Shown: positions 28,556 through 39,733 of the stretch, piece after piece | Numbering within the stretch: position 1 is the first letter of the stretch | Layout of the letters: every line of letters begins with the position of its first letter | NCBI GenBank assembly: GCA_028715885.1 | Contig: JAQUQX010000004.1 | Span: 1-64,000, forward strand | Source of the DNA: Candidatus Methanoperedens sp. | GTDB taxonomy: Archaea > Halobacteriota > Methanosarcinia > Methanosarcinales > Methanoperedenaceae | DNA: 64,000 bases | Reading direction: 5' to 3' | Notes under the pieces: model-generated | Databases searched by the model: none | What the model was told of the DNA's origin: nothing | Seen by the model: only the letters and a program-made list of their open reading frames with translations | Made by a program: the position numbers and the translations under genes

Positions 28556-29572
28556 TTATGGTTTGTCAAACGTCAGTGCGCCAACTGACATATTGATGGC
28601 AATCTCCGCAATGTCCCCGCTGTAACTTGCTATTCTCCCAAGGCTGTCAAGCATGGCTTTTTGCAGGATAGCAGATTGAATATTTTGTGGTTGTAGCAAT
28701 TCGTTTGAAAGGTCGGAATGAGATTTTTTAATCTCTTTGAGCTCATGGAAAATTTTCTCAGCCATTGCGTTATTTCTTGTAAATAACGCATGAACCGATT
28801 TTTCGAAAATTACAATTATATCGTTATTGAGCTTTATAAAATCATTCAGCGGTGTATCCTTCTGGACTTCCAATAATTGAATATAGCTCTTTGCTATATT
28901 TTCAATATGGTCTGCAATCCGCTCAAGCGCTTTGACTGCAATCCTGTACCCAAGGCAATCTCTCTGGTTCTCTATTCCCAGCTTTTCTGCAATCTGCTGG
29001 TATTCCACTGCGCTCTTAAGCTGCCTCACCACCAGAAAATAAAGCCTGTCAATTTCCCGCTCTCTTATCATTACGTCTTTTGCAAGCCCGATATCCACGG
29101 TTTTCAGGGCTTTGCCGAGGTCAAGAAGCATCGACCTGTTGATGGAATACATTCTCTGGAGTATCTGCATGGTGCTCATACGTTTGTAATCCACCATTAT
29201 CTCAAGAGTCATTGCATCGTCTGTGTCCTCGACTATCTCTACACCTATCAGATAGTCCATGACCTTGCGTATGCTCTTTCTATATGGAAGATGGTCTTTC
29301 CTGTCCAATTTAATCCTGATTGTGTCATAACCCACAAGATAAAACGCAATAATTATACGTTCAAGAGCCTCGTTCGATGTTACTTGTGAGATTTTAATCT
29401 CCTTCACCTGCGACTCTTTTTCAATAACACTGGTTTCGATCAGTAATGAACTGCCATGTTCCGTAACCACCAGCGAGTCTCCAGGCTTCAGGTTAGTCTT
29501 CGTAACCCATTTTTTGGGTAGTGAGATTACATAGGTTGAGCCGCCACTTACATAGACTTTTCTTGCTTCCAT
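28556..29572 (-). CDS. AbrB-PhoU fusion, probable phosphate regulator
   Basis: The 338-residue product joins a SpoVT/AbrB-like DNA-binding domain (residues 1-50: KVYVSGGSTYVISLPKKWV, LKPGDSLVVTEH) to a PhoU-like helical region (about 125-335) with two PhoU repeats, including GYRIAVKALERIADHIENIA and KAMLDSLGRIASYSGDIAE. PhoU proteins sense the state of phosphate uptake; with a DNA-binding head this protein is a likely transcription regulator of the phosphate island that follows. A TATA-like CTATAAAATATC (minus strand, near 29600) puts the start of transcription next to the ATG. The shared element at 29584 lies directly upstream and overlaps that promoter, so autoregulation is likely. Confidence 0.92.
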   Translation of the reverse strand: MEARKVYVSGGSTYVISLPKKWVTKTNLKPGDSLVVTEHGSSLLIETSVIEKESQVKEIKISQVTSNEALERIIIAFYLVGYDTIRIKLDRKDHLPYRKSIRKVMDYLIGVEIVEDTDDAMTLEIMVDYKRMSTMQILQRMYSINRSMLLDLGKALKTVDIGLAKDVMIREREIDRLYFLVVRQLKSAVEYQQIAEKLGIENQRDCLGYRIAVKALERIADHIENIAKSYIQLLEVQKDTPLNDFIKLNNDIIVIFEKSVHALFTRNNAMAEKIFHELKEIKKSHSDLSNELLQPQNIQSAILQKAMLDSLGRIASYSGDIAEIAINMSVGALTFDKP

Positions 29573-29583
29573 ATTTATCTTGT

Positions 29584-29640
29584 AATCTACTGATATTTTA
29601 TAGTATATATAGATTCTTGTGACAAAATATATACTTTATA
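29584..29640. promoter_or_regulatory. Pho-box-like element A (divergent promoter)
   Basis: AATCTACTGATATTTTATAG is followed by TATATATAGATTCTTGTGAC and AAAATATATACTTTAT. AATCTA and TAGATT form an inverted repeat with 20 bases between them. The element is shared, with strong identity over about 55 bases, with 32630, 33709 and 35312. Here it lies between the AbrB-PhoU gene (minus) and the microprotein gene at 29668 (plus). Confidence 0.75.
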
Positions 29641-29667
29641 ATTAGAATTATCAGTTTGGTGAAAGAA

Positions 29668-29793
29668 ATGATAGAAACAGAAGTACTGAGAAAAACAATG
29701 CCATGCAACTCATTCATAGAGGAATTTGAGGAAATGGGAAAAGAAGACCGGGAGCTATACCTGTTCCTGCGCGGCGGATTTGCTGCCAAATGA
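29668..29793 (+). CDS. 41-residue acidic microprotein in the Pho island
   Basis: ATG at 29668 sits 6 bases after GGTGA, behind Pho-like element A and its TATA box. The product has 41 residues: MIETEVLRKTMPCNSFIEEF, then an acidic stretch EEMGKEDRELYLF and a basic end LRGGFAAK. There is one Cys and no membrane segment. It is divergent from the AbrB-PhoU gene and is the first of a row of short plus-strand genes. No family is recognised. The good Shine-Dalgarno and promoter position argue for a real gene. Confidence 0.6.
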   Translation: MIETEVLRKTMPCNSFIEEFEEMGKEDRELYLFLRGGFAAK

Positions 29794-29852
29794 GAAAACA
29801 CAGGGGGGCGAAGATTTAACAAAATAAATTTCTTCGAATTTCAGGTGTAGAA

Positions 29853-30074
29853 ATGGTACAAACAGAGAACTATGAAACAGGATTCATTGATTACAGCAGT
29901 GATACCGAAAGTTTGTATCTTTTGCGAAGAGGCAAGCTTAGAATATTAATTTCGATTGAAAAAAACAGGGAAAACATTCCTGCAAGTGGAGATAAAGATT
30001 ATCCCGTTTCTCCGTATGAAGGTTTGATCTCAATGATGAAAATATTGAAAGGGGAACCGAATGCAAAGATTTAG
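29853..30074 (+). CDS. 73-residue hypothetical protein in the Pho island
   Basis: A soluble protein of 73 residues (MVQTENYETGFIDYSSDTES, LYLLRRGKLRILISIEKNRE, ending SMMKILKGEPNAKI) with an acidic start and basic middle. CAGGTGT lies 6 bases before the ATG. The end overlaps the start of the 25-residue membrane microprotein at 30061 in another frame, which suggests coupled translation. No family is recognised. Confidence 0.6.
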   Translation: MVQTENYETGFIDYSSDTESLYLLRRGKLRILISIEKNRENIPASGDKDYPVSPYEGLISMMKILKGEPNAKI

Positions 30075-30138
30075 CAAAATTGAATTTTTCCTATTAACTC
30101 TTCTTTTCATACTCGCATTCTGGATGGTGGTTAAATGA
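30061..30138 (+). CDS. 25-residue single-TM microprotein upstream of psiE
   Basis: The frame ATG 30061 to TGA 30136-30138 encodes MQRFSKIEFFLLTLLFILAF plus a short WMVVK end: a basic start, one hydrophobic helix and a Lys end. It overlaps the preceding gene by 14 bases, and its stop overlaps the psiE start codon in an ATGA arrangement. The double overlap and membrane-helix composition argue that it is translated. Membrane microproteins next to transporters or PsiE could act as subunits; this is inference. Confidence 0.55.
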   Translation: MQRFSKIEFFLLTLLFILAFWMVVK

Positions 30139-30550
30139 TAGACCATCCAAAAATGTTCAAAAAAATTACTGATTCCATTGTTACCATCGTCCTGTATGTA
30201 CTGTTGTTGGCTCTCATTGCAGGAACGCTGCGGATATTACTTGATATCCACACTGTTGCGATAGACTCGCTCGATGGTGGTTTTAACAAAATAGTTACTA
30301 ACGTTCTCACGCTTTTTATTGTGATTGAGTTCTTCAAGACCTTTGCAGACTATTCCAAACATGAAAGAATCAAGCTCACCGACATAACCGACGTCACGAT
30401 TTTAATAGCTATGCGTGAGGTCACTGTCGGGCTTTATTCCAAATCGTTGGATTCGAAACTATTTTCGCCCTATCTGCGCTGCTACTGGTGCTTGGAGTGA
30501 TAAGGGTGCTGGCTGTCAGGTACTCGCCGGAGAAGGTTTTAGTAACATGA
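30135..30550 (+). pseudogene. psiE: psiE-family gene with a -1 frameshift
   Basis: PsiE-family proteins are four-helix membrane proteins induced by phosphate starvation. The first 105 residues match: ALIAGTLRILLDIH, TNVLTLFIVIEFFKTF and ITDVTILIAMREVTVGLYSK. In the annotated frame the protein then ends early after a non-family tail, SPYLRCYWCLE. From 30449 the frame shifted by -1 continues as GFETIFALSALLLVLGVIRV and LAVRYSPEKVLVT, which is the missing fourth helix and the usual C-terminus. One base has been lost around 30445-30455, in the genome or in sequencing. No classic slippery site is seen. The start overlaps the 25-residue gene. Confidence 0.8.
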
Positions 30551-30602
30551 ATAAGCCTCAGGCATTAAGTTATACGTATGCTGCAAAATAAGATATATCT
30601 AA

Positions 30603-30992
30603 ATGATTACCATAAAACCATTGAAAGAAGAAATGCGACAGTTAAAAACCGATACGTATGCCCTTTATTTATCCTATAAAGATCCAAGAGTCCCCTGGTA
30701 CGCGAAGGTCATAATAGCCGCAACTGTAGGTTATGCTTTGAGCCCTATTGATTTGATCCCGGATTTTATACCAGTCCTGGGGCTGCTTGACGATTTAATT
30801 ATTGTACCAATAGGGATTTCCCTGGCGCTAAAAATGATGCCAAAGGAAGTTCTTGATGAATACAGGGAGAAGGCTCAATCTGAACTTAATGGTAGCAAAC
30901 CAAAAAACTGGGTTGCTGCGTTTATAATAGTTTTAATCTGGTTGCTGGTAGTTTATTTATTTTTAAGATATGTTTATAAATTACTTCTGTAA
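30603..30992 (+). CDS. DUF1232 (YkvA-like) membrane protein
   Basis: The 129-residue product has the DUF1232 core YKDPRVPWYAKVIIAATVGY with ALSPIDLIPDFIPVLGLLDD directly after it, a hairpin-like membrane segment typical of the family, and an additional C-terminal membrane helix (WVAAFIIVLIWLLVVYLFL). The function of DUF1232 is not known. It follows the psiE locus on the same strand by 52 bases, and may be part of the Pho island. Confidence 0.88.
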   Translation: MITIKPLKEEMRQLKTDTYALYLSYKDPRVPWYAKVIIAATVGYALSPIDLIPDFIPVLGLLDDLIIVPIGISLALKMMPKEVLDEYREKAQSELNGSKPKNWVAAFIIVLIWLLVVYLFLRYVYKLLL

Positions 30993-31062
30993 ATGTGTAA
31001 TATTTACATTTAAATTTGTTATAAACATAACATTTAAATATCATATACTTGTTCTAAGATAT

Positions 31063-31599
31063 ATGAAATGGATATTACTGATAATTAAATCGACAAATGT
31101 TTCATCAAGAGACCGGATGTTCATCTGGAGGAATATCAAAAATACTGGTGCAGTTTCGTTATCTCATTCAGTCTATATATTGCATGATACGGAAGACAAC
31201 AGAGCTACTGCTATAGATATTGCCAGAATAGTACATGAAAGAAATGGTGAAGTTTTACAATTTTTTGCCGATACTCTTAATGAAGAGCGGGAGCAGAAGT
31301 TAAATAAACTGATTGCAGAAGAAATTGCAACAGAAATTAGAGAATTCTCTAAAGAGTGCGAAGATTTTATTGACGATTTAACTAAGAGAATTTCAAATAA
31401 AAAATTCAAGGTTTTTGAATTAGAGGAACTGAGCGACGACATTCATAAACTTGACAGGTGGAGAATAAAGCTGATTCAGAAACACAGCCCTGGCACAGCC
31501 AATATTGAGATTTTGAACAAAGAAATTGGAAAATGTAAAGAAAGATTAAACGAGTTCGAAGAAAAAGTTCTCCAGAAAGGCAAAGCAGCGGGTCATTAG
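31063..31599 (+). CDS. ChrB-N-terminal-domain-like protein
   Basis: This 178-residue protein begins MKWILLIIKSTNVSSRDRMF, then WRNIKNTGAVSLSHSVYILH, which matches the N-terminal domain of the chromate-resistance regulator ChrB. The rest is a long charged helical region, probably coiled coil (LTKRISNKKFKVFELEELSD, ILNKEIGKCKERLNEFEEKV). The catalytic-like ChrB C-terminal domain is absent. The ATG at 31063 is preferred because a TATA-like CATTTAAATATC lies about 30 bases upstream (leaderless). It is 7 bases from the transporter gene that follows, so the two form an operon. Confidence 0.8.
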   Translation: MKWILLIIKSTNVSSRDRMFIWRNIKNTGAVSLSHSVYILHDTEDNRATAIDIARIVHERNGEVLQFFADTLNEEREQKLNKLIAEEIATEIREFSKECEDFIDDLTKRISNKKFKVFELEELSDDIHKLDRWRIKLIQKHSPGTANIEILNKEIGKCKERLNEFEEKVLQKGKAAGH

Positions 31600-31606
31600 T
31601 CATCTT

Positions 31607-32539
31607 ATGCTCTATGATGCTTTTTACCAGTCACTTGATTACCTTCTCACCATAATCCCCGTAATGGTGATAGGAGTTGTTGCAGCAGAATTCCTTGTTG
31701 AGATCGGCTGGATACACAAGATCGGTTTCATGGTTTCGCCTTTGACAAGATTTGCGCATCTTCATGAAGAATGCAGCATAAGTTTCATCACAGCATTCGG
31801 TTCTCCCGCCGCGTCCAATTCGATGCTCAAAAAATTATATGATGACGGGCGGATTGAAAGAAAAGAGCTTATTGTAGCCTCCCTGATAAATTCATTTCCA
31901 TCCATAATAATGCATTGGAGAACGCTTTTACCTGTTTTTATTCCTCTTCTTGGTATGGCGGGCATGATATATCTTGGAATACTGACAGCAGTAGGGCTTT
32001 TAAGAACGTTCGTTACTCTAATGATCGGACACTTCCTGCTGGACAAAAAGCAGTATATTCCAGATAAAACCATGTATCAGCCTCCTTTATTTTTAAATGC
32101 ATTTAAACTAAGTATTAAAAAATCCAAAAAAACCATATTTCGAATTATCACGATGACTATTCCGGTTACTGTACTGGTATTTGTCCTGATCGATGCGGGA
32201 TTTTTCGAGGTTCTGGCTGGTTTTTTAAAGGAACATGCCGTTTTCATACCTGTGCCTGGTGAAGCGCTTCCCATAATAGCAGCGCAATTTACAGCCAACA
32301 TTGCAGCTTATACTATTGCAGGAAACCTTCTTTCAGCAGGCATTCTCAACACGAAGGAAATAGTATTATCCCTGCTTGTCGGAAAGATTCTTTCAAGCAT
32401 TGTGAGTATAAGAATTCTTATTCCATATTACGTGGGAATATTCGGTTCAAAGCTCGGCTCACAAATAATGATATATTCTGCAATACTCAGGGAGGGCATA
32501 CTGGTCGTTGCTACTGTTATTCTGGCATTCTCGTGGTAA
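31607..32539 (+). CDS. Nucleoside-recognition (Gate) domain membrane protein
   Basis: The 310-residue protein has about eight hydrophobic segments and two Gate-like repeats. FGSPAASNSMLKKLYDDGRI lies near residue 65, and AAQFTANIAAYTIAGNLL lies near 225. Family members include SpmA/B and the FeoB core. The archaeal stand-alone proteins (COG3366-like) are presumed transporters with unknown substrate. It is coupled by 7 bases to the ChrB-N-like gene and is the last gene of the first half of the phosphate island; a phosphorus-compound substrate would fit but is not shown. Confidence 0.83.
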   Translation: MLYDAFYQSLDYLLTIIPVMVIGVVAAEFLVEIGWIHKIGFMVSPLTRFAHLHEECSISFITAFGSPAASNSMLKKLYDDGRIERKELIVASLINSFPSIIMHWRTLLPVFIPLLGMAGMIYLGILTAVGLLRTFVTLMIGHFLLDKKQYIPDKTMYQPPLFLNAFKLSIKKSKKTIFRIITMTIPVTVLVFVLIDAGFFEVLAGFLKEHAVFIPVPGEALPIIAAQFTANIAAYTIAGNLLSAGILNTKEIVLSLLVGKILSSIVSIRILIPYYVGIFGSKLGSQIMIYSAILREGILVVATVILAFSW

Positions 32540-32629
32540 GAGTGATTTAAGCGAATGGGGTTTTTTATAGCCCTCTAATTAGACGCTTTGATATCATGAT
32601 GGCTGAGCCGCCACATACATGGCCCCCAT

Positions 32630-32685
32630 AATCTACTGACTTTATTTAGTATATATAGATTATTGAGATAAAATATATAATATTT
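32630..32685 (+). promoter_or_regulatory. Pho-box-like element B
   Basis: AATCTACTGACTTTATTTAG is followed by TATATATAGATTATTGAGAT and AAAATATATAATAT. It aligns without gaps with elements A, C and D. AATCTA/TAGATT flank 20 bases. The AATATATAAT end is a TATA box about 26 bases before the ATG at 32704, so the TIM-barrel gene should be leaderless and directly controlled. Confidence 0.78.
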
Positions 32686-32703
32686 AGAGTAAAGCTATAG
32701 CGC

Positions 32704-33591
32704 ATGAATACAAAAACAGGCATAAACTCTCCTCAGATAAAAGATTTTGGAGGAGCCATAGATCCATGTGAAGTGGAAATTATTGAGCTTGGTCTCGACA
32801 GGGTGAATTTTTTAGAAAAACAGAAAGAGGAGGAGATATTATCCAAAGCTGCACATCTCGCCTCGTCTTTTGGCACCGAATTTACTATTCATGCTCCACA
32901 TATCGATTCCAGGATAGAGGAAATAAGGATAGACTTTTCAGTAATCAACGCAAAAAATTTTATAATCATGGGAAACGTTTTCGAAATTGCCTCAAAAACA
33001 GGGGCAAAATACATAGTTGTTCACCCGGGTCATCAGAACGGCTCAAAAAAATGCTTTAATTTCAACATACTTAATTTAATTAAACTGTGTAAAGTAGCTG
33101 AGGAATACGGTGCTACCCTTCTTTTAGAAAACCTGTTTGACAGGCAGGGAGGAAATAAAATTGGTGTGTTGCCGGGCGAAATTTACCGTATAATTGAAAT
33201 GGTAGAGTCAGAAAATTTAAAGATTAATCTTGATATTGGACATGCGTTTATTGCATCAACTGCATACCGGTTGCCAATGGAAGATTATTTTGAGCTCGGC
33301 GAGTACGTATATCAAATGCATCTTCATGATAACTTTGGTACTCTGGAGTCTGAAGCAACGATGTTCGGGGATCGCCATCTATCTTTAGGACAGGGGAAAA
33401 TAAATTTCGGGGAAGTATTTAAAAACATTTTAAAAACTAATGTAAGGAACCTGATTCTTGAAGTTAAACACGCATCAAAAGAGGAAATCCTCAAAAGCCT
33501 TGCACAAATAAGAGATTTTCGCAATTTGAAAGCTGGTTTAATGTCTCCCAGAATAACCTGTTGCGTTAAGCCTGCTGTGGTATGCTTTTAG
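32704..33591 (+). CDS. TIM-barrel sugar-isomerase/AP-endonuclease-like protein
   Basis: The 295-residue product has the xylose-isomerase-like (AP endonuclease 2) barrel: EFTIHAPHID near 58, YIVVHPGHQNG near 102, LLLENLFDRQGG near 140, LDIGHAFIAS near 178, YQMHLHDNFG near 205 and LILEVKH near 255. The His/Glu/Asp set fits three divalent metals. Members are sugar epimerases or endonuclease IV-like nucleases; the substrate is not known. It starts right behind Pho-like element B, so it probably responds to phosphate. The C-terminal 25 residues, with two Cys, lie outside the barrel. Confidence 0.85.
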   Translation: MNTKTGINSPQIKDFGGAIDPCEVEIIELGLDRVNFLEKQKEEEILSKAAHLASSFGTEFTIHAPHIDSRIEEIRIDFSVINAKNFIIMGNVFEIASKTGAKYIVVHPGHQNGSKKCFNFNILNLIKLCKVAEEYGATLLLENLFDRQGGNKIGVLPGEIYRIIEMVESENLKINLDIGHAFIASTAYRLPMEDYFELGEYVYQMHLHDNFGTLESEATMFGDRHLSLGQGKINFGEVFKNILKTNVRNLILEVKHASKEEILKSLAQIRDFRNLKAGLMSPRITCCVKPAVVCF

Positions 33592-33598
33592 GAGGAAA

Positions 33599-33718
33599 AT
33601 GAAAGCAAGAGTTGTTTATATCGAGCCTGAGAAAGCAAAGAGGATTAATGAAATTCTTGCAGCAGAAAGAGAATTTCATGAAGCAAAGGAAAACGTTTGG
33701 AATCCTAAAATTTACTGA
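33599..33718 (+). CDS. 39-residue microprotein after the TIM-barrel gene
   Basis: The frame from ATG 33599 (behind AGGAGGA) to TGA 33716-33718 gives 39 residues: MKARVVYIEPEKAKRINEIL, then AAEREFHEAKENVWNPKIY. It starts 7 bases after the TIM-barrel stop, so the two are likely one transcript. The helix is highly charged. Its last codons are also the first bases of Pho-like element C. No family is recognised. Confidence 0.6.
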   Translation: MKARVVYIEPEKAKRINEILAAEREFHEAKENVWNPKIY

Positions 33719-33765
33719 TTTTATATAACATCTATAGATTATTGGGAGAAAGTATATATTATTTT
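33709..33765 (+). promoter_or_regulatory. Pho-box-like element C
   Basis: AATTTACTGATTTTATATAA is followed by CATCTATAGATTATTGGGAG and AAAGTATATATTATTT. It is nearly the same as element D upstream of pstS, and the similarity continues into the first codons of the pstS copy at 33796. The inner ATCTATAGAT is a perfect palindrome. Confidence 0.78.
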
Positions 33766-33795
33766 ATGCCAAAACTCCCGCTGTGATTAGACAAA

Positions 33796-33912
33796 ATGAA
33801 TCGATTAAAAACAATACAAATTTTGATTCTGGCAGGCGTACAGCCTGCGGTACAGCCGACTGCAACAGTGCAGCCCAAAAAATCTCTGGAAAAATATGGG
33901 GGTAAAGAATAA
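33796..33912 (+). pseudogene. Truncated pstS 5' copy acting as a leader ORF
   Basis: This 38-codon frame begins MNRLKTIQILILAGV, like PstS (MNRLKIILILVLAGV), then jumps to the PstS linker (QPTATVQP) and ends KSLEKYGGKE. The lipobox Cys has been deleted, so it cannot be a lipoprotein. About 130 bp, from element C through the signal sequence, match the pstS upstream region at 35312-35444. Its stop TAA overlaps the ATG of the S-layer gene by one base (TAATG), so it now acts as a coupled leader for that gene. Confidence 0.8.
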
Positions 33913-35174
33913 TGTGTAAAAAAATAACAGCAGTTGCATTAGTAACGTTAATGCTATTAGCAGCTTTACCCGCAAATGCAGCTATACAAGCAACAAAAGT
34001 GGAAATTCGAGGAGCGACAGCGAGCACGATAGAAAAAACGATTCCGTCTGGCGGCTTTAACCTGACCAACATTGTCAATGCACCGGTTAACTGGACGCCA
34101 CAGGGCTTTGCAGGTTTCTACTACGACCTGAAAGACGAGCTGGGCAGAGAGGAATTGGAGATACTCCAGACAGACCTATCAAAGAATCAGAGAGCTGTTG
34201 GAGAAAATAACTTAGTTTACAGAACTACTGCCCAGAAAAAGAAGCTGAAGGTTGTAAACGATGGGTTTAATGGTAGTGCAAGTGCGGCAACAGAAGCAGG
34301 TCTGGAGAAAGTAGGAAGTGCGTTTACCAGCAGCGGTGAATACCTCATCATGGGTTGGCAGGGAGAGAAATATATAGCCGTGAACAACAAGATTGATATA
34401 ATCAGCAAGCTTCTCTTTGAGCATGGAGCCACTGCTAATGAGAAGAAAACCTTAGCTGTAGGAGAGAAGTGGGATATAGGCGATGGCTGGGAACTCATTG
34501 CCCAGAGCATAGACGCTAAAGCATCACCAAGACAGGTATGGCTCACGTTGAGCTATAAGGGACAGAAGCTTGATGATAAAGTAGTCGCCCAGGGTAAAAT
34601 ATACACTTACGTTGAGAAGAGTATCGCAGAGGAGAGCGATGTGCCCATGTTCGTGACCAAGGTTGATAGCGTATTCGCAGGCGCAGATGGCGACATGGCT
34701 CAGTTAAGATTTACATGGGTGGTCTCTCGCAATGTAACAAAAATCAAGTCAGGAGAAACGATTGGAGCATTCAAAGTCAAGGACATAAACCAAACAGGTC
34801 TGCGTCTGGAACTTAAAAACGAGAAAATAATAACTCTTGACCAGAATGCGGTTATTGATCTAATTGGCAATATTAAATTAAAGGTGGCGGATAAAGCAGA
34901 TGTGCTCAGGCTCTACCCCAAGGTCGACTACGAGATGGCAAGCGCAAAACCAGCCACAACATCAACTATAACACCAATTGCAACGCCAACCATAATAGAA
35001 ACTGTAGCAACCAAAGCATTATCCATAACACCAACTATAACATCAACACCAGCGATTAACACTCCTGCACCGCCTGAGCCTCGTGTAACGTCGACTCTCG
35101 AAATGCCGGGATTTGAGGCTGTGTTCGCAATTTCAGGCTTGCTTGCGGTGGCATACCTTGTGCTGAGAAAGTAA
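33912..35174 (+). CDS. S-layer-family protein with PGF-CTERM anchor
   Basis: A surface protein of 420 residues: signal peptide (KITAVALVTLMLLAALPANA), an S-layer-duplication domain like those of Methanosarcina S-layer proteins (VNWTPQGFAGFYYDLKDELG, SSGEYLIMGWQGEKYIAV, WDIGDGWELIAQSIDAK), a Thr/Pro-rich stalk (about 340-395) and a C-terminal PGF-CTERM segment, EMPGFEAVFAISGLLAVAYL followed by basic VLRK. It should be processed by archaeosortase A. The gene is coupled to the truncated pstS leader and lies under Pho-like element C, so it may be a phosphate-controlled S-layer variant. An 8-bp hairpin terminator follows. Confidence 0.9.
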   Translation: MCKKITAVALVTLMLLAALPANAAIQATKVEIRGATASTIEKTIPSGGFNLTNIVNAPVNWTPQGFAGFYYDLKDELGREELEILQTDLSKNQRAVGENNLVYRTTAQKKKLKVVNDGFNGSASAATEAGLEKVGSAFTSSGEYLIMGWQGEKYIAVNNKIDIISKLLFEHGATANEKKTLAVGEKWDIGDGWELIAQSIDAKASPRQVWLTLSYKGQKLDDKVVAQGKIYTYVEKSIAEESDVPMFVTKVDSVFAGADGDMAQLRFTWVVSRNVTKIKSGETIGAFKVKDINQTGLRLELKNEKIITLDQNAVIDLIGNIKLKVADKADVLRLYPKVDYEMASAKPATTSTITPIATPTIIETVATKALSITPTITSTPAINTPAPPEPRVTSTLEMPGFEAVFAISGLLAVAYLVLRK

Positions 35175-35177
35175 GTA

Positions 35178-35210
35178 TGAAGGGTGTAACCCTTCACATT
35201 TTCTTTTTTT
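35178..35210 (+). terminator. Strong hairpin terminator after the S-layer gene
   Basis: TGAAGGGT-GTA-ACCCTTCA (35178-35196) is a perfect 8-bp stem, followed by ATTTTCTTTTTTT. It insulates the S-layer unit from pstS. Confidence 0.8.
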
Positions 35211-35311
35211 GTTAACTTTGGGCGCACAGGATAGCGCGGCTTTAAGTGCAAGCTATAAGGGTGCACTCCTATGAATCCGCGTATCTGGAAAACAAACGTT
35301 CAGAATTTTAA

Positions 35312-35368
35312 AATTTACTGATTTTATATAGTATCTATAGATTCTTGGGAGAAGCTATATATTATTTG
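35312..35368 (+). promoter_or_regulatory. Pho-box-like element D (pstSCAB promoter)
   Basis: AATTTACTGATTTTATATAG is followed by TATCTATAGATTCTTGGGAG and AAGCTATATATTATTT. The CTATATATTAT end is the TATA box, giving a leader of about 25 bases before pstS at 35400. It is one of four copies, each next to a phosphate-island gene. Confidence 0.82.
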
Positions 35369-35399: not shown

Positions 35400-36515
35400 A
35401 TGAATCGATTAAAGATAATTCTAATTCTGGTTCTGGCAGGCGTGTTGATAGCTGGATGTGTAAGCAAGCCGCCTGCCGAAGTACAGCCTACAGTGCAACC
35501 GACTGCAACCGTGCAGCCCACAAAAGCCCCGTCAACCTTAACTTTAAACGGCGCAGGTGCAACATTCCCATATCCCCTTATATCCAAATGGAGTTCGGAA
35601 TATAACAAAATAAAGCCGAATGTCCAGATCAATTACCAGAGCGTGGGAAGCGGCGCTGGTATAAAGCAAATAACCGAAAAAACAGTAGATTTTGGCGCCA
35701 GTGATGCGCCTCTCTCAGATAAGGAATACGCAAATGTTTCGGGACTCCTGCAAATACCCGAGTCCATAGGCGCGGTAGTTGTGGCATACAACCTCCCCGG
35801 CATACAGAAGGGAGTGAAATTGAGCGGCGATGTGGTCGCAGACATTTTCCTCGGGAAAATCACAAAATGGAACGACCCCAGGATTGTTTCGCTTAATCCC
35901 GGCATCCAGTTCCCGGCAAAGGACATTATCGTAGCGCACAGGAGTGATGGAAGCGGCACAACTTTCGTCTTCACGGATTATCTTTCAGCGGTAAGCCCTG
36001 ACTGGAAATCAAAAGCTGGAAAGGGTAAATCCGTCAACTGGCCTGTCGGTCTTGGCGGGAAAGGCAACGAGGGCGTTGCAGGTCTCTTAAGCCAGAACCC
36101 TTATGCCATAGGATATATCGAGCTGGCTTATGCTAAACTCCAGAACATCCCATATGCGTATATAAAGAACAAAGCAGGAAAGTTTATCGAGCCCACGCTT
36201 GAGACAACTGCAAGTGCTGCGGCAGGCGCAGTGTCAACGCTGCCCGCAGGCGATGCAAGCTGGTCATCCGTAAGTATTGTGGATGCACCGGGAGATAATT
36301 CATATCCCATCGGCAGTTTTACCTATCTTCTTGTCTACAAAGACCAGGCAGATAAGACAAAGGGTAAAGCACTGGCTGAATATCTCTGGTGGGTAATACA
36401 CGATGGTCAGCAATATTCCGCAGACCTGCTGTATGTACCATTGCCAAAAGAAGTCGTAAGCTTGAATGAAAAAACCATAAAGCTTATGAACTATAATGGG
36501 CAACCACTGATTTAG
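35400..36515 (+). CDS. pstS: Phosphate ABC transporter substrate-binding lipoprotein PstS
   Basis: PstS binds phosphate outside the cell and delivers it to PstCA. The 371-residue protein has a lipobox (LIAGC, Cys20), a Pro/Thr linker (about 22-42) and the PBP domain: LNGAGATFPYPLISKWSSEY, NYQSVGSGAGIKQI, DFGASDAPLSD, AHRSDGSGTTFVFTDYL and a C-terminal VYKDQADKTKGKALAEYLWW. The phosphate loops SGAG, SDAP and SDGSGTT are intact. It is the first gene of pstSCAB-phoU, behind element D. Confidence 0.97.
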   Translation: MNRLKIILILVLAGVLIAGCVSKPPAEVQPTVQPTATVQPTKAPSTLTLNGAGATFPYPLISKWSSEYNKIKPNVQINYQSVGSGAGIKQITEKTVDFGASDAPLSDKEYANVSGLLQIPESIGAVVVAYNLPGIQKGVKLSGDVVADIFLGKITKWNDPRIVSLNPGIQFPAKDIIVAHRSDGSGTTFVFTDYLSAVSPDWKSKAGKGKSVNWPVGLGGKGNEGVAGLLSQNPYAIGYIELAYAKLQNIPYAYIKNKAGKFIEPTLETTASAAAGAVSTLPAGDASWSSVSIVDAPGDNSYPIGSFTYLLVYKDQADKTKGKALAEYLWWVIHDGQQYSADLLYVPLPKEVVSLNEKTIKLMNYNGQPLI

Positions 36516-36516
36516 G

Positions 36517-37476
36517 ATGGATAGACCAAAATTGTCTTTTTTCAGTATCCGCCGGAGTAAGCTCTCCGGCGATTTTATTTTTGAAGCTGTTGTTGGTTTA
36601 TTTGCCCTGGGCGTAATAGTCCTTGCATTTTTATTATTCAGGGAGCTTTTAATTGAGTCTCAGCTTTCGTGGAATACTTTTGGCATGGGTTTTTTGACTG
36701 GCTCGACCTGGGACCCCGTGAGCGAGATATTCGGCGCCCTGCCTTTTATCTTCGGGACTCTGGTTTCATCGTTCCTTGCCCTGCTCATAGCTGTTCCCTT
36801 CAGCATTGGGATAGCGATATATCTCTCAGAACTTGCCCCGGAAAAGCTGAGGACGCCATTATCTTTCATCATCGAACTGCTCGCTGCCGTCCCGAGCGTC
36901 ATCATCGGGCTCTGGGGCATATTCATTCTCGCCCCGTTCATCCGCGACTATCTTGCTCCGCCCCTTTCCACTTACCTTGGTTTCCTGCCGCTCTTCCAGG
37001 GACCCATGTACGGTCTGTCCATGCTCACAGGCGGCGTGATACTTGCAATCATGATAATCCCGATAACTTCATCGGTATCAAGGGAAGTCATTATGACAGT
37101 GCCCTTACAGCAGCGGGAAGCAGCCCTCGCTCTTGGCGCTACGGGATGGGAGACCACACGGATTGCAGTTCTTCCTTACGCCAGATCAGGAATATTCGGC
37201 GCTGTGATTCTAGGCTTTGGCAGGGCGATAGGTGAAACGATGGCAGTAACAATGGTCATCGGGAACAGTCCCAGGATTTCGGAATCCCTTTTCTCGCCAT
37301 CATATACGATGGCTTCTGTTATAGCAAATGAGTTTGTGGAGGCAACGTCAAAGCTTTACATCTCATCTCTTATCGAGATCGGGTTTTTGCTCCTGCTCAT
37401 CTCGGTCATCATCAACATAGCAGCCAGGATTTTGGTGTGGAAGATGTTTAAAGTAGAGGGAGGCGGGAGAGCGTGA
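36517..37476 (+). CDS. pstC: Phosphate ABC transporter permease PstC
   Basis: An inner-membrane permease of 319 residues with about six helices. The family's EAA-type loop appears as EAALALGATGWETTRIAVLP near 205-225, and PFSIGIAIYLSELAPEKLR and LAAVPSVIIGLWGIF lie in the first half. It starts 1 base after the pstS stop and overlaps pstA by 4 bases, so the operon is tightly coupled. The length and motif order are normal. Confidence 0.96.
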   Translation: MDRPKLSFFSIRRSKLSGDFIFEAVVGLFALGVIVLAFLLFRELLIESQLSWNTFGMGFLTGSTWDPVSEIFGALPFIFGTLVSSFLALLIAVPFSIGIAIYLSELAPEKLRTPLSFIIELLAAVPSVIIGLWGIFILAPFIRDYLAPPLSTYLGFLPLFQGPMYGLSMLTGGVILAIMIIPITSSVSREVIMTVPLQQREAALALGATGWETTRIAVLPYARSGIFGAVILGFGRAIGETMAVTMVIGNSPRISESLFSPSYTMASVIANEFVEATSKLYISSLIEIGFLLLLISVIINIAARILVWKMFKVEGGGRA

Positions 37477-38306
37477 AATGGAATAAAAGAAGATTGATTG
37501 ACAGGATCATGTCAATCCTGACCGCTGCCTGCGTTGTAATTGCCATAATCCCACTGCTGAGCATCCTCTATACGGTAATCATCAATGGGATATCTGCTAT
37601 AGACCTGGATTTTCTTACACAGCTCCCCAAACCTGTTGGCGAAGCGGGAGGCGGGCTTGGGAATGCAATCCAGGGGACATTTATTGTTGTGGGGATTGCC
37701 TGCTTAATCGGGCTTCCTGTAGGCATTCTTTCAGGGATCTATCTTTCAGAATACGGGGAAAACAGGTTCGGCAGAATGGTAAGCTTTGTGGCTGATGTCC
37801 TCACTGGCACACCCTCTATAGTGGCAGGGATGTTCGGTTATACTTTCATAGTCCTTTATTTCGGAAGCTTCTCGGCAATCGCAGGCGGGGTGGCGCTGTC
37901 GGTATTGATGATACCAGTCGTCACAAGAACCACCGAGGAATCACTCAAACTTGTACCGGCATCAATTAAAGAGGCTTCGCTGGCGCTTGGAATACCAAGA
38001 TGGAAAACAACGCTGCATATCGTTCTAAGTACCGCAAGAAGCGGCATAATTACGGGTGCATTACTGGCAATTGCAAGGATATCGGGTGAGACCGCGCCTC
38101 TCCTTTTCACTTCCTTCGGGAATATGTTCTGGGCTAACGGGGTAGACAAACCAATATCCACCCTGCCGGTTCAGATTTATACATATGCAGTAACACCCTT
38201 TCCCGACTGGCATGCCAAAGCGTGGGCTGGGGCTCTCGTTCTGATTATCCTGATTCTTATCTTGAATATTAGCGTGAGGTTCGCAACTCGAAGAAAATAT
38301 GGTTAA
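37473..38306 (+). CDS. pstA: Phosphate ABC transporter permease PstA
   Basis: The second permease, 277 residues and about six helices. [16 protein letters not shown] near 85, [17 protein letters not shown] near 110 and the EAA loop [20 protein letters not shown] near 165-185 identify it; [16 protein letters not shown] is also typical. It begins with GTG (GTGAAATGG) overlapping the pstC stop, and is followed 13 bases later by pstB. Confidence 0.96.
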
Positions 38307-38319
38307 AAGGAGTATCAAC

Positions 38320-39078
38320 ATGCAGAATAAAATAACAGTAGAAAATCTCAATGCATCGTTTGGAGCTAAACAGGTACTGCATGACATCAATATTGGTATC
38401 GAGAAAAACGGGATAACCGCCATCATAGGTCCTTCAGGATGCGGAAAATCCACATTCATCCGGTGCCTCAACAGAATGCATGAAGTTGTATCCAAAGCAA
38501 GAGTTTCAGGAAAAGTGCTGGTTGATGGCAAGGATATCTACGATAGCGATATCGACCCTGTGGACATAAGAAGGCGCATAGGCATGGTATTCCAGAAGCC
38601 TAACCCCTTTCCCACTATGTCTATATACGATAATGTTGCGGCTGGATTGAAGCTCAATGGCATAAATGATAAGGAAATCCTTGATAAGACAGTTGAGGAA
38701 AGTCTTAAAAAAGCCGCCCTCTGGGATGAAGTTAAGAACGACCTCAATAAATCGGGTGTAAGTTTATCAGGGGGTCAGCAGCAGCGCCTCTGCATAGCAA
38801 GGGCATTAGCCGTTGAGCCGGAAGTCATCCTGTTTGACGAGCCCTGCTCAGCTTTAGACCCTATCTCTACAAGTAAGATAGAAGATTTAATGACAGGGCT
38901 TAAGGAAAAATATACCCTTGTTATAGTAACGCATAATATGCAGCAGGCTGCAAGAGTAAGCGATTATACAGCGTTCTTTTTATATGGAAAGATGATAGAG
39001 TTTGGAGAAACAAATCAGATATTTAAGAAACCAAAGGAGAAAAGTACTGAAGATTACATAGTCGGGAGGTTTGGATAA
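38320..39078 (+). CDS. pstB: Phosphate ABC transporter ATP-binding protein PstB
   Basis: The ATPase of phosphate import, 252 residues. Walker A ([17 protein letters not shown] near 38), the Q-loop region [18 protein letters not shown], signature [16 protein letters not shown] near 150 and Walker [14 protein letters not shown] near 170 are all present, as is the PstB-specific [10 protein letters not shown]. The ATG at 38320 follows AAAGGAG. It is followed at once by phoU, whose ribosome site lies in the pstB end. Confidence 0.97.
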
Positions 39079-39079
39079 C

Positions 39080-39733
39080 ATGACACGGGAAGCATATCAC
39101 AAAGACCTGCACAAATTAAGGGAGGAAGTGCTTAACATGGGAAGCCTTGTAGGCAAGACGATAGGAGATGCCGTATTATCTCTTAAGAATCGGGATGTTG
39201 AGTTGGCACAGAAAGTTATTGATATGGATAAAGAAATTGACGGCATCGATCACACCATTGAGGAAGACTGCATGCGCCTTCTTGCGCTCCAGCAGCCTAT
39301 GGCGAGGGATTTGAGGCTTATAATCTCGGTATTGAAAATGAGCATCGACCTTGAAAGGATGGGCGACCTTGCCCTGGAAATAGCTGTTATTACAAAGATA
39401 ACAGCTAATGTACCCCCCGTAAAACCCCTTATAGATATACCAAGAATGTCAGAGATATGTCAGCAAATGCTGGCAAATACCATGAACGCCTTTGAAAACA
39501 AGGACGTTGAGCTTGCAAAGGCTGTTGCGAAGCGGGATGATGAGATAGATATGCTCTTTGATCAGATAAGAAGAGAACTGATTTCTTATATGATCGAAGA
39601 CCCGAAAAAGATAACCGGCGCCCAGCATCTGACGTTTGTGGCGAGGTATCTTGAGAGGATAGGGGATCACATAACGAATCTCTGCGAAAATGTGGTTTTT
39701 ATGGTGACAGGGGAACGGGTTGAATTGAATTAA
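39080..39733 (+). CDS. phoU: Phosphate-uptake regulator PhoU
   Basis: A 217-residue all-helical protein with two PhoU repeats: DHTIEEDCMRLLALQQPMAR with LRLIISVLKMSIDLERMGDL in the first, and AQHLTFVARYLERIGDHITN in the second, with the E/DxxxD metal-binding clusters intact. PhoU restrains Pst transport and signalling. The ATG at 39080 follows GGGAGG. It ends the pstSCAB-phoU operon. It is distinct from the AbrB-PhoU fusion at 28556 and the DUF47 protein at 39827, so the locus carries three PhoU-type proteins. Confidence 0.95.
   Translation: MTREAYHKDLHKLREEVLNMGSLVGKTIGDAVLSLKNRDVELAQKVIDMDKEIDGIDHTIEEDCMRLLALQQPMARDLRLIISVLKMSIDLERMGDLALEIAVITKITANVPPVKPLIDIPRMSEICQQMLANTMNAFENKDVELAKAVAKRDDEIDMLFDQIRRELISYMIEDPKKITGAQHLTFVARYLERIGDHITNLCENVVFMVTGERVELN

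Follow-up and report, generated by a model that had tools for sequence, protein, structure and literature searches.

How phosphate genes are switched in archaea outside the haloarchaea is largely unknown so far. The question is raised anew by a 64,000-nucleotide stretch of a Candidatus Methanoperedens genome (contig JAQUQX010000004.1, positions 1 to 64,000; hereafter the window), in which four copies of a promoter element precede phosphate-linked genes and one of them adjoins the gene for AbrB-PhoU, a protein that joins an AbrB domain to PhoU domains. What is this element, and which protein reads it? That it is the operator of an archaeal phosphate (Pho) regulon is strongly implied by its sequence, its fixed spacing and, in many archaea, its placement almost only before phosphate genes. 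From sequence comparison we further consider it likely that the one-component regulator AbrB-PhoU reads this operator, probably activating the Pho genes and shutting its own promoter. If true, this would explain the control of phosphate genes in archaea that are without the bacterial PhoB system.

We compared the copies in the window, which an initial annotation had described as four gapless, Pho-box-like elements starting at positions 29584 (A), 32630 (B), 33709 (C) and 35312 (D). All four were confirmed at these positions on the + strand, where they align without gaps, agree pairwise at 47–57 of 65 positions and are invariant in 40 of 67 columns. A weight matrix run over the window scored A–D at 80–85 and the next-best site below 8. 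When a sequence-only model built from A–D (R1) was searched against the whole genome of origin (2.09 Mb, 95% complete) it recovered A–D only, with E values of 8e-18 to 3e-16 and the next match at E 0.13. Each copy is therefore real, but C and D are not independent of one another. They are identical at 57 of 65 positions and the duplication includes the promoter, the leader and the first codons of pstS, so the window holds at most three independent copies.

R1 sites were found in 33 of the 34 genomes of the Methanoperedens family, with 2–13 sites in each: in 31 of 31 genomes of the genus (the genome of origin included) and in two of the three others. The single family genome without a site is 67% complete. 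From the R1 matches and the surrounding DNA we collected 119 sites, 115 of them distinct, and read the first genes outward from each; gene identity was not used for choosing the sites. The first gene was pstS at 31 sites, a microprotein of 41–53 amino acids (aa) at 27, a second AbrB-PhoU paralog at 14 and a TIM-barrel gene at 13, and more rarely DUF47-pit (4), PsiE (1) or alkaline phosphatase (1). At eighteen further sites, which keep their half-sites, TFB recognition element (BRE) and TATA box, a divergent AbrB-PhoU gene lies directly alongside and no forward gene was recognised. The other first genes were a polyhydroxyalkanoate (PHA) synthase subunit E-like gene (2), a reading frame of no known function (3) and a helix-turn-helix protein (1), and the last four sites lie within Pho gene islands or next to AbrB-PhoU. 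About 95% of the 119 sites are Pho-linked, and the genes behind the elements are a Pho regulon by content. Thus the original proposal that each element stands at the promoter of a phosphate-linked unit holds for the window and likewise for the relatives: the sites are not spread evenly before unrelated genes, and the element is present in the pst promoters of nearly all close relatives and also in distant archaea. Weaker sites in other relatives lie before alkaline phosphatase (phoA) and polyphosphate kinase genes.

In two relatives (L079:2781-3860 and L099:2992-4080) the element precedes proteins whose matches to PHA synthase subunit E barely exceed the Pfam cut-off, a hint that phosphate starvation is linked to carbon storage in Methanoperedens. 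The 18 sites with no recognised forward gene (among them L078, L104, L107, L132, L135 and L138) may serve AbrB-PhoU alone or yield a short transcript. A small RNA behind such sites was considered and set aside, since an alignment of the DNA downstream of 14 of these or comparable sites showed no block-like conservation.

Over about 48 positions the 119 sites form a gapless alignment, with the consensus TnTACTGATTTTaTATAGtATaTATAGATT(A/C)TTGgGAnAAAnTATATA. We found that the conserved operator consists of two direct half-sites, TACTGATTTT and TATAGATTaTTG, which are 20 bp apart and abut the BRE. Self-similarity of the profile is greatest when it is shifted in direct orientation by 20 bp (0.66, against 0.50 for the runner-up), where TACTGATTTT falls against TATAGATTaT, and conservation reaches about 35 bp 5' of the BRE, in the two half-sites. 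Columns 47–52 match the archaeal BRE pattern RNWAAW and columns 53–58 are a TATA box. The start codons of the pstS, TIM-barrel and paralog genes lie about 27–45 nt downstream of this box; automated microprotein starts at 28 nt use TTG, and an ATG at about 40 nt, behind GGTGA, is likelier. Columns 47–58 and a distance to the start codons of about 30–45 nt overall fit what is expected of a core promoter (RNWAAW, then a TATA box some 25 bp ahead of the start site), as judged from the letters. In every site the operator lies 5' of the BRE and TATA box, at one fixed spacing and orientation, and never over or past the start. The divergent layout of element and AbrB-PhoU gene is retained in 32 sites. 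These results change two details of the initial annotation. A and B do contain the inverted repeat of AATCTA and TAGATT to the letter, but as a conserved feature it is ruled out: of the 115 distinct sites, 6 have AATCTA and 4 have the full 6-bp complement. A direct repeat at 20 bp stands in its place. The final ATATA box is likewise present, but it belongs to the core promoter as its TATA box, preceded by the BRE-like RNWAAW stretch.

Elsewhere in the same order the core was found before pst operons in family f3, where AbrB-PhoU is the last gene and a TIM-barrel gene often lies inside, and before pstS in genus g10 of family f5. In f2, f4 and further f5 genomes, promoters of pst or AbrB-PhoU carry diverged forms. 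Scanning 84,980 genomes for the exact core pattern gave 45 stretches, most of them from Methanoperedens. Of the rest, all but two are without the left half-site and resemble chance matches. One of the two exceptions is a Bathyarchaeal contig, on which the match stands in the space separating AbrB-PhoU (35% identical) from pstS and faces pstS. The other is a contig labelled Patescibacteria that carries a complete Methanoperedens-type element (L179:6771-6794) and is probably a binning error. We also searched a model R2 against relatives of the Bathyarchaeal genome and against 394 genomes of the home phylum. Outside the order, sites at pst or pit promoters were found in 8 of 9 genomes of the phylum at E ≤ 1e-3 and in 7 of 11 on the Bathyarchaeal side at E ≤ 0.01, mostly with AbrB-PhoU on the other side of the site. 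A reversed-column control of R2 matched 2 of the 394 genomes, versus 18 with the true model, and no Pho homolog was near the control matches. This control and the specificity of R1 in its own genome rule out chance AT-rich similarity. Virus-borne copies were also rejected: viral contigs gave no match to the full pattern and two to the core, both apparently fortuitous.

The candidate reader has an AbrB/MazE domain (PF04014, MazE_antitoxin, 32.8 bits against a cut-off of 24.7) followed in its C-terminal half by two PhoU three-helix domains (PF01895 in two stretches, 75.5 bits, above cut-off). In the predicted structure this half matches the PhoU crystal structures 1t72 and 4q25 (Foldseek E 2.5e-6), and the monomer model of the AbrB part is poor. 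The middle domain (residues 55–130) has the order beta-alpha-beta-alpha-beta-beta; its best matches are Alba DNA-binding proteins, weakly (E 4.5e-3), with SepF and other folds scoring close behind. It is possible from the model that this domain is a second nucleic-acid-binding part. Across 17 homologs 54% of residues 1–24 are invariant, versus 3–14% elsewhere in the protein, and between the window and the Bathyarchaeal protein identity is 79% over residues 1–24 and 30% over PhoU. Full-length homologs are also present on haloarchaeal plasmids, annotated as "phosphate uptake regulator PhoU", and three of the five examined are located near phosphatase or phosphonate-transport genes. The Thermococcus homolog TK2157 has been listed among chromosome-associated proteins (PMC7325993).

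In the mechanism that we favour, each element would be a phosphate-responsive promoter in which a two-half-site operator is fused without a gap to a BRE-like stretch and a TATA box. Half-sites 20 bp apart are separated by two helical turns and so would present the same face of the DNA, and the AbrB domain may bind both as a dimer or as a tetramer (dimer of dimers). The PhoU part would convey the Pst/phosphate signal. When phosphate is short, AbrB-PhoU beside the BRE would aid transcription factor B (TFB) and the TATA-binding protein (TBP), and pst, psiE, pit, phoA and related genes would rise; in Methanosarcina mazei, pst and phoA are raised under phosphate starvation (PMC6864096). Since the candidate TATA box of the AbrB-PhoU gene lies within operator A, autorepression is predicted: in the divergent layout the protein would also cover the TATA box of its own gene. 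Signalling and DNA binding would thus be joined in one protein and a PhoR-PhoB relay would not be involved. We put at roughly even the chance of a broader proposal, namely that this is an ancient archaeal Pho switch of one operator type and one one-component regulator (AbrB, Alba-like domain, PhoU), which senses the Pst/phosphate state, acts at the BRE, is common to the Methanoperedens phylum and Bathyarchaeia, predates or has crossed phylum boundaries, and controls uptake, phosphatase, polyphosphate and PHA-storage genes in methane-oxidising archaea.

The sign of regulation is where the main rival lies. The same operator and AbrB-PhoU could work by repression, the protein covering the BRE and keeping TFB off while phosphate is present and starvation releasing it. 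We hold this only tentatively, although it fits almost as well as activation. Repressors are common among AbrB proteins, the right half-site runs up to the BRE, and PhoU of bacteria has a negative effect at high phosphate. The first two of these points weigh against activation by AbrB-PhoU, and so do several observations on the element and its reader: part of the conservation at the AbrB end is a general superfamily signature, some genomes with AbrB-PhoU (parts of f2, f4 and f5) show only a diverged element or none that is recognisable, and the eighteen sites beside AbrB-PhoU retain a BRE and TATA box with no recognised forward gene. In addition, a scan of five haloarchaeal AbrB-PhoU loci gave no clear copy of the element, which also sets it apart from the Halobacterium setting discussed below. 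Against repression, an operator that is always upstream of the BRE and TATA box at one spacing and orientation is what would be expected of an activator contacting TFB/TBP, and the pho boxes of Halobacterium are essential for upregulation under low phosphate, according to PMC6560208.

In several cases the AbrB-PhoU gene itself occupies a target position, as it would if the operator were real but bound by another, unlinked transcription factor and AbrB-PhoU were merely a co-regulated neighbour. We consider this unlikely, as AbrB-PhoU recurs beside the element in distant families and in another phylum, its DNA-binding end is its best conserved part, and a PhoB-type output domain (Trans_reg_C) was found in 0 of 31 relatives while 10 of 14 control genomes were positive. 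It is very improbable that the repeat is no more than a strong core promoter (an extended BRE/TATA) spread by duplication with no regulator. The element does include a BRE and TATA box and C and D are duplicates, but ordinary promoters of the same genome do not score with R1, conservation continues into the two half-sites 5' of the BRE, and the targets are almost purely phosphate genes.

How does this operator compare with those already known? The PhoB Pho box of bacteria is similarly a direct-repeat operator just 5' of the core promoter of pst, phoA and related genes. However, it has 7-bp repeats of the CTGTCAT type with an 11-bp period, whereas the archaeal element peaks at 20 bp, and the proposed reader is a one-component fusion and not an OmpR-family protein like PhoB. 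The 20-bp period and the missing PhoB-type domains rule out identity with the bacterial system. AbrB-PhoU resembles AbrB/MazE/SpoVT-fold regulators in its N-terminal domain, but differs from them in being fused to a beta-alpha-beta-alpha-beta-beta domain and PhoU and in being the proposed reader of a long, fixed operator. Its C-terminal half is like PhoU of the bacterial Pst complex; unlike AbrB-PhoU, bacterial PhoU has no DNA-binding domain and its signal goes through PhoR. Among archaea, Halobacterium salinarum has a pho box (P-box) in both Pst transporter promoters, and PhoU regulators are credited with its control (Furtwangler 2010, cited in PMC6560208). The element likewise occurs in pst promoters (31 family sites before pstS, other families and Bathyarchaeota) and a PhoU-type regulator is proposed for it. 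The initial annotation had stated that no described archaeal Pho operator of this form was known. In view of the Halobacterium report this was too broad, since archaeal Pho boxes were known before; what is new is this version of the operator, with its unusual breadth across archaea. Our searches, which covered the open literature and few subscription papers, turned up no account of the operator, of how far it extends or of its reading by AbrB-PhoU.

What is gained is a precise operator, a specific candidate regulator and a list of targets (uptake, phosphatase, polyphosphate, PHA synthase and S-layer genes). Because conserved partners exist in the same order, to which cultured methanogens belong, direct testing is feasible. 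The element also offers a ready marker by which the phosphate status of uncultured, methane-oxidising Methanoperedens could be read from metagenomes and metatranscriptomes.

Table 1. Operator features and associated genes in the window.
Feature	Position	Strand	Remarks
Element A, operator with BRE/TATA	29584..29633	+	Promoter of microprotein-psiE operon; overlaps promoter region of divergent AbrB-PhoU gene
Left half-site of A (TACTGATATT)	29588..29597	+	Profile columns 13-22, strongly conserved; direct repeat of right half-site at +20
Right half-site of A (TATAGATTCTTG)	29608..29619	+	Profile columns 33-44
BRE-like stretch (ACAAAA) and TATA box (TATATA) of A	29622..29633	+	Columns 47-58; spacing to start codons
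Candidate TATA box of AbrB-PhoU gene, within operator A	29604..29611	-	TATATATA conserved in reverse view, ~39 nt before AbrB-PhoU ATG
Element B	32630..32679	+	TIM-barrel gene promoter; same position before TIM homologs in 13 sites
Element C	33709..33758	+	Duplicated pstS promoter, now 5' of truncated pstS and S-layer gene
Element D	35312..35361	+	pstSCAB-phoU promoter; same place before pstS in 31 sites
AbrB-PhoU fusion, proposed regulator	28556..29572	-	Pfam MazE_antitoxin and PhoU above cut-off; neighbours element across archaea
41-aa conserved microprotein ending LYLFLRGGFAAK	29668..29793	+	First gene behind A; homologs behind 27 sites
PsiE-family gene in A operon	30135..30500	+	Pfam PsiE 32.6 bits, cut-off 23.9
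AP_endonuc_2 TIM-barrel gene behind B	32704..33591	+	Pfam 102.5 bits
S-layer protein with PGF-CTERM behind C	33912..35174	+	Pfam S-layer 169.8 bits
pstS, pstC, pstA, pstB, phoU behind D	35400..39733	+	NCBIfam PstS, PstC, PstB and PhoU equivalogs above cut-off

The genes behind the elements in the window are listed in Table 1. The microprotein gave no Pfam or NCBIfam match, and its tail, E-LYLF(L/M)RGGFxAK, is near-invariant. pstA behind D was assigned by position and by homologs in the pst operons of relatives. At three loci of a related family (L229, L230 and L231) a metallophosphoesterase and a TIM-barrel gene lie inside the pst operon, and this placement suggests that the TIM-barrel gene of the window may have a phosphate-related role. 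Between 33697 and 35174 a duplicated pstS promoter and signal region lies 5' of the S-layer gene, an arrangement seen only in this genome among those examined. From its sequence, the S-layer gene behind C is an apparent case of promoter capture.

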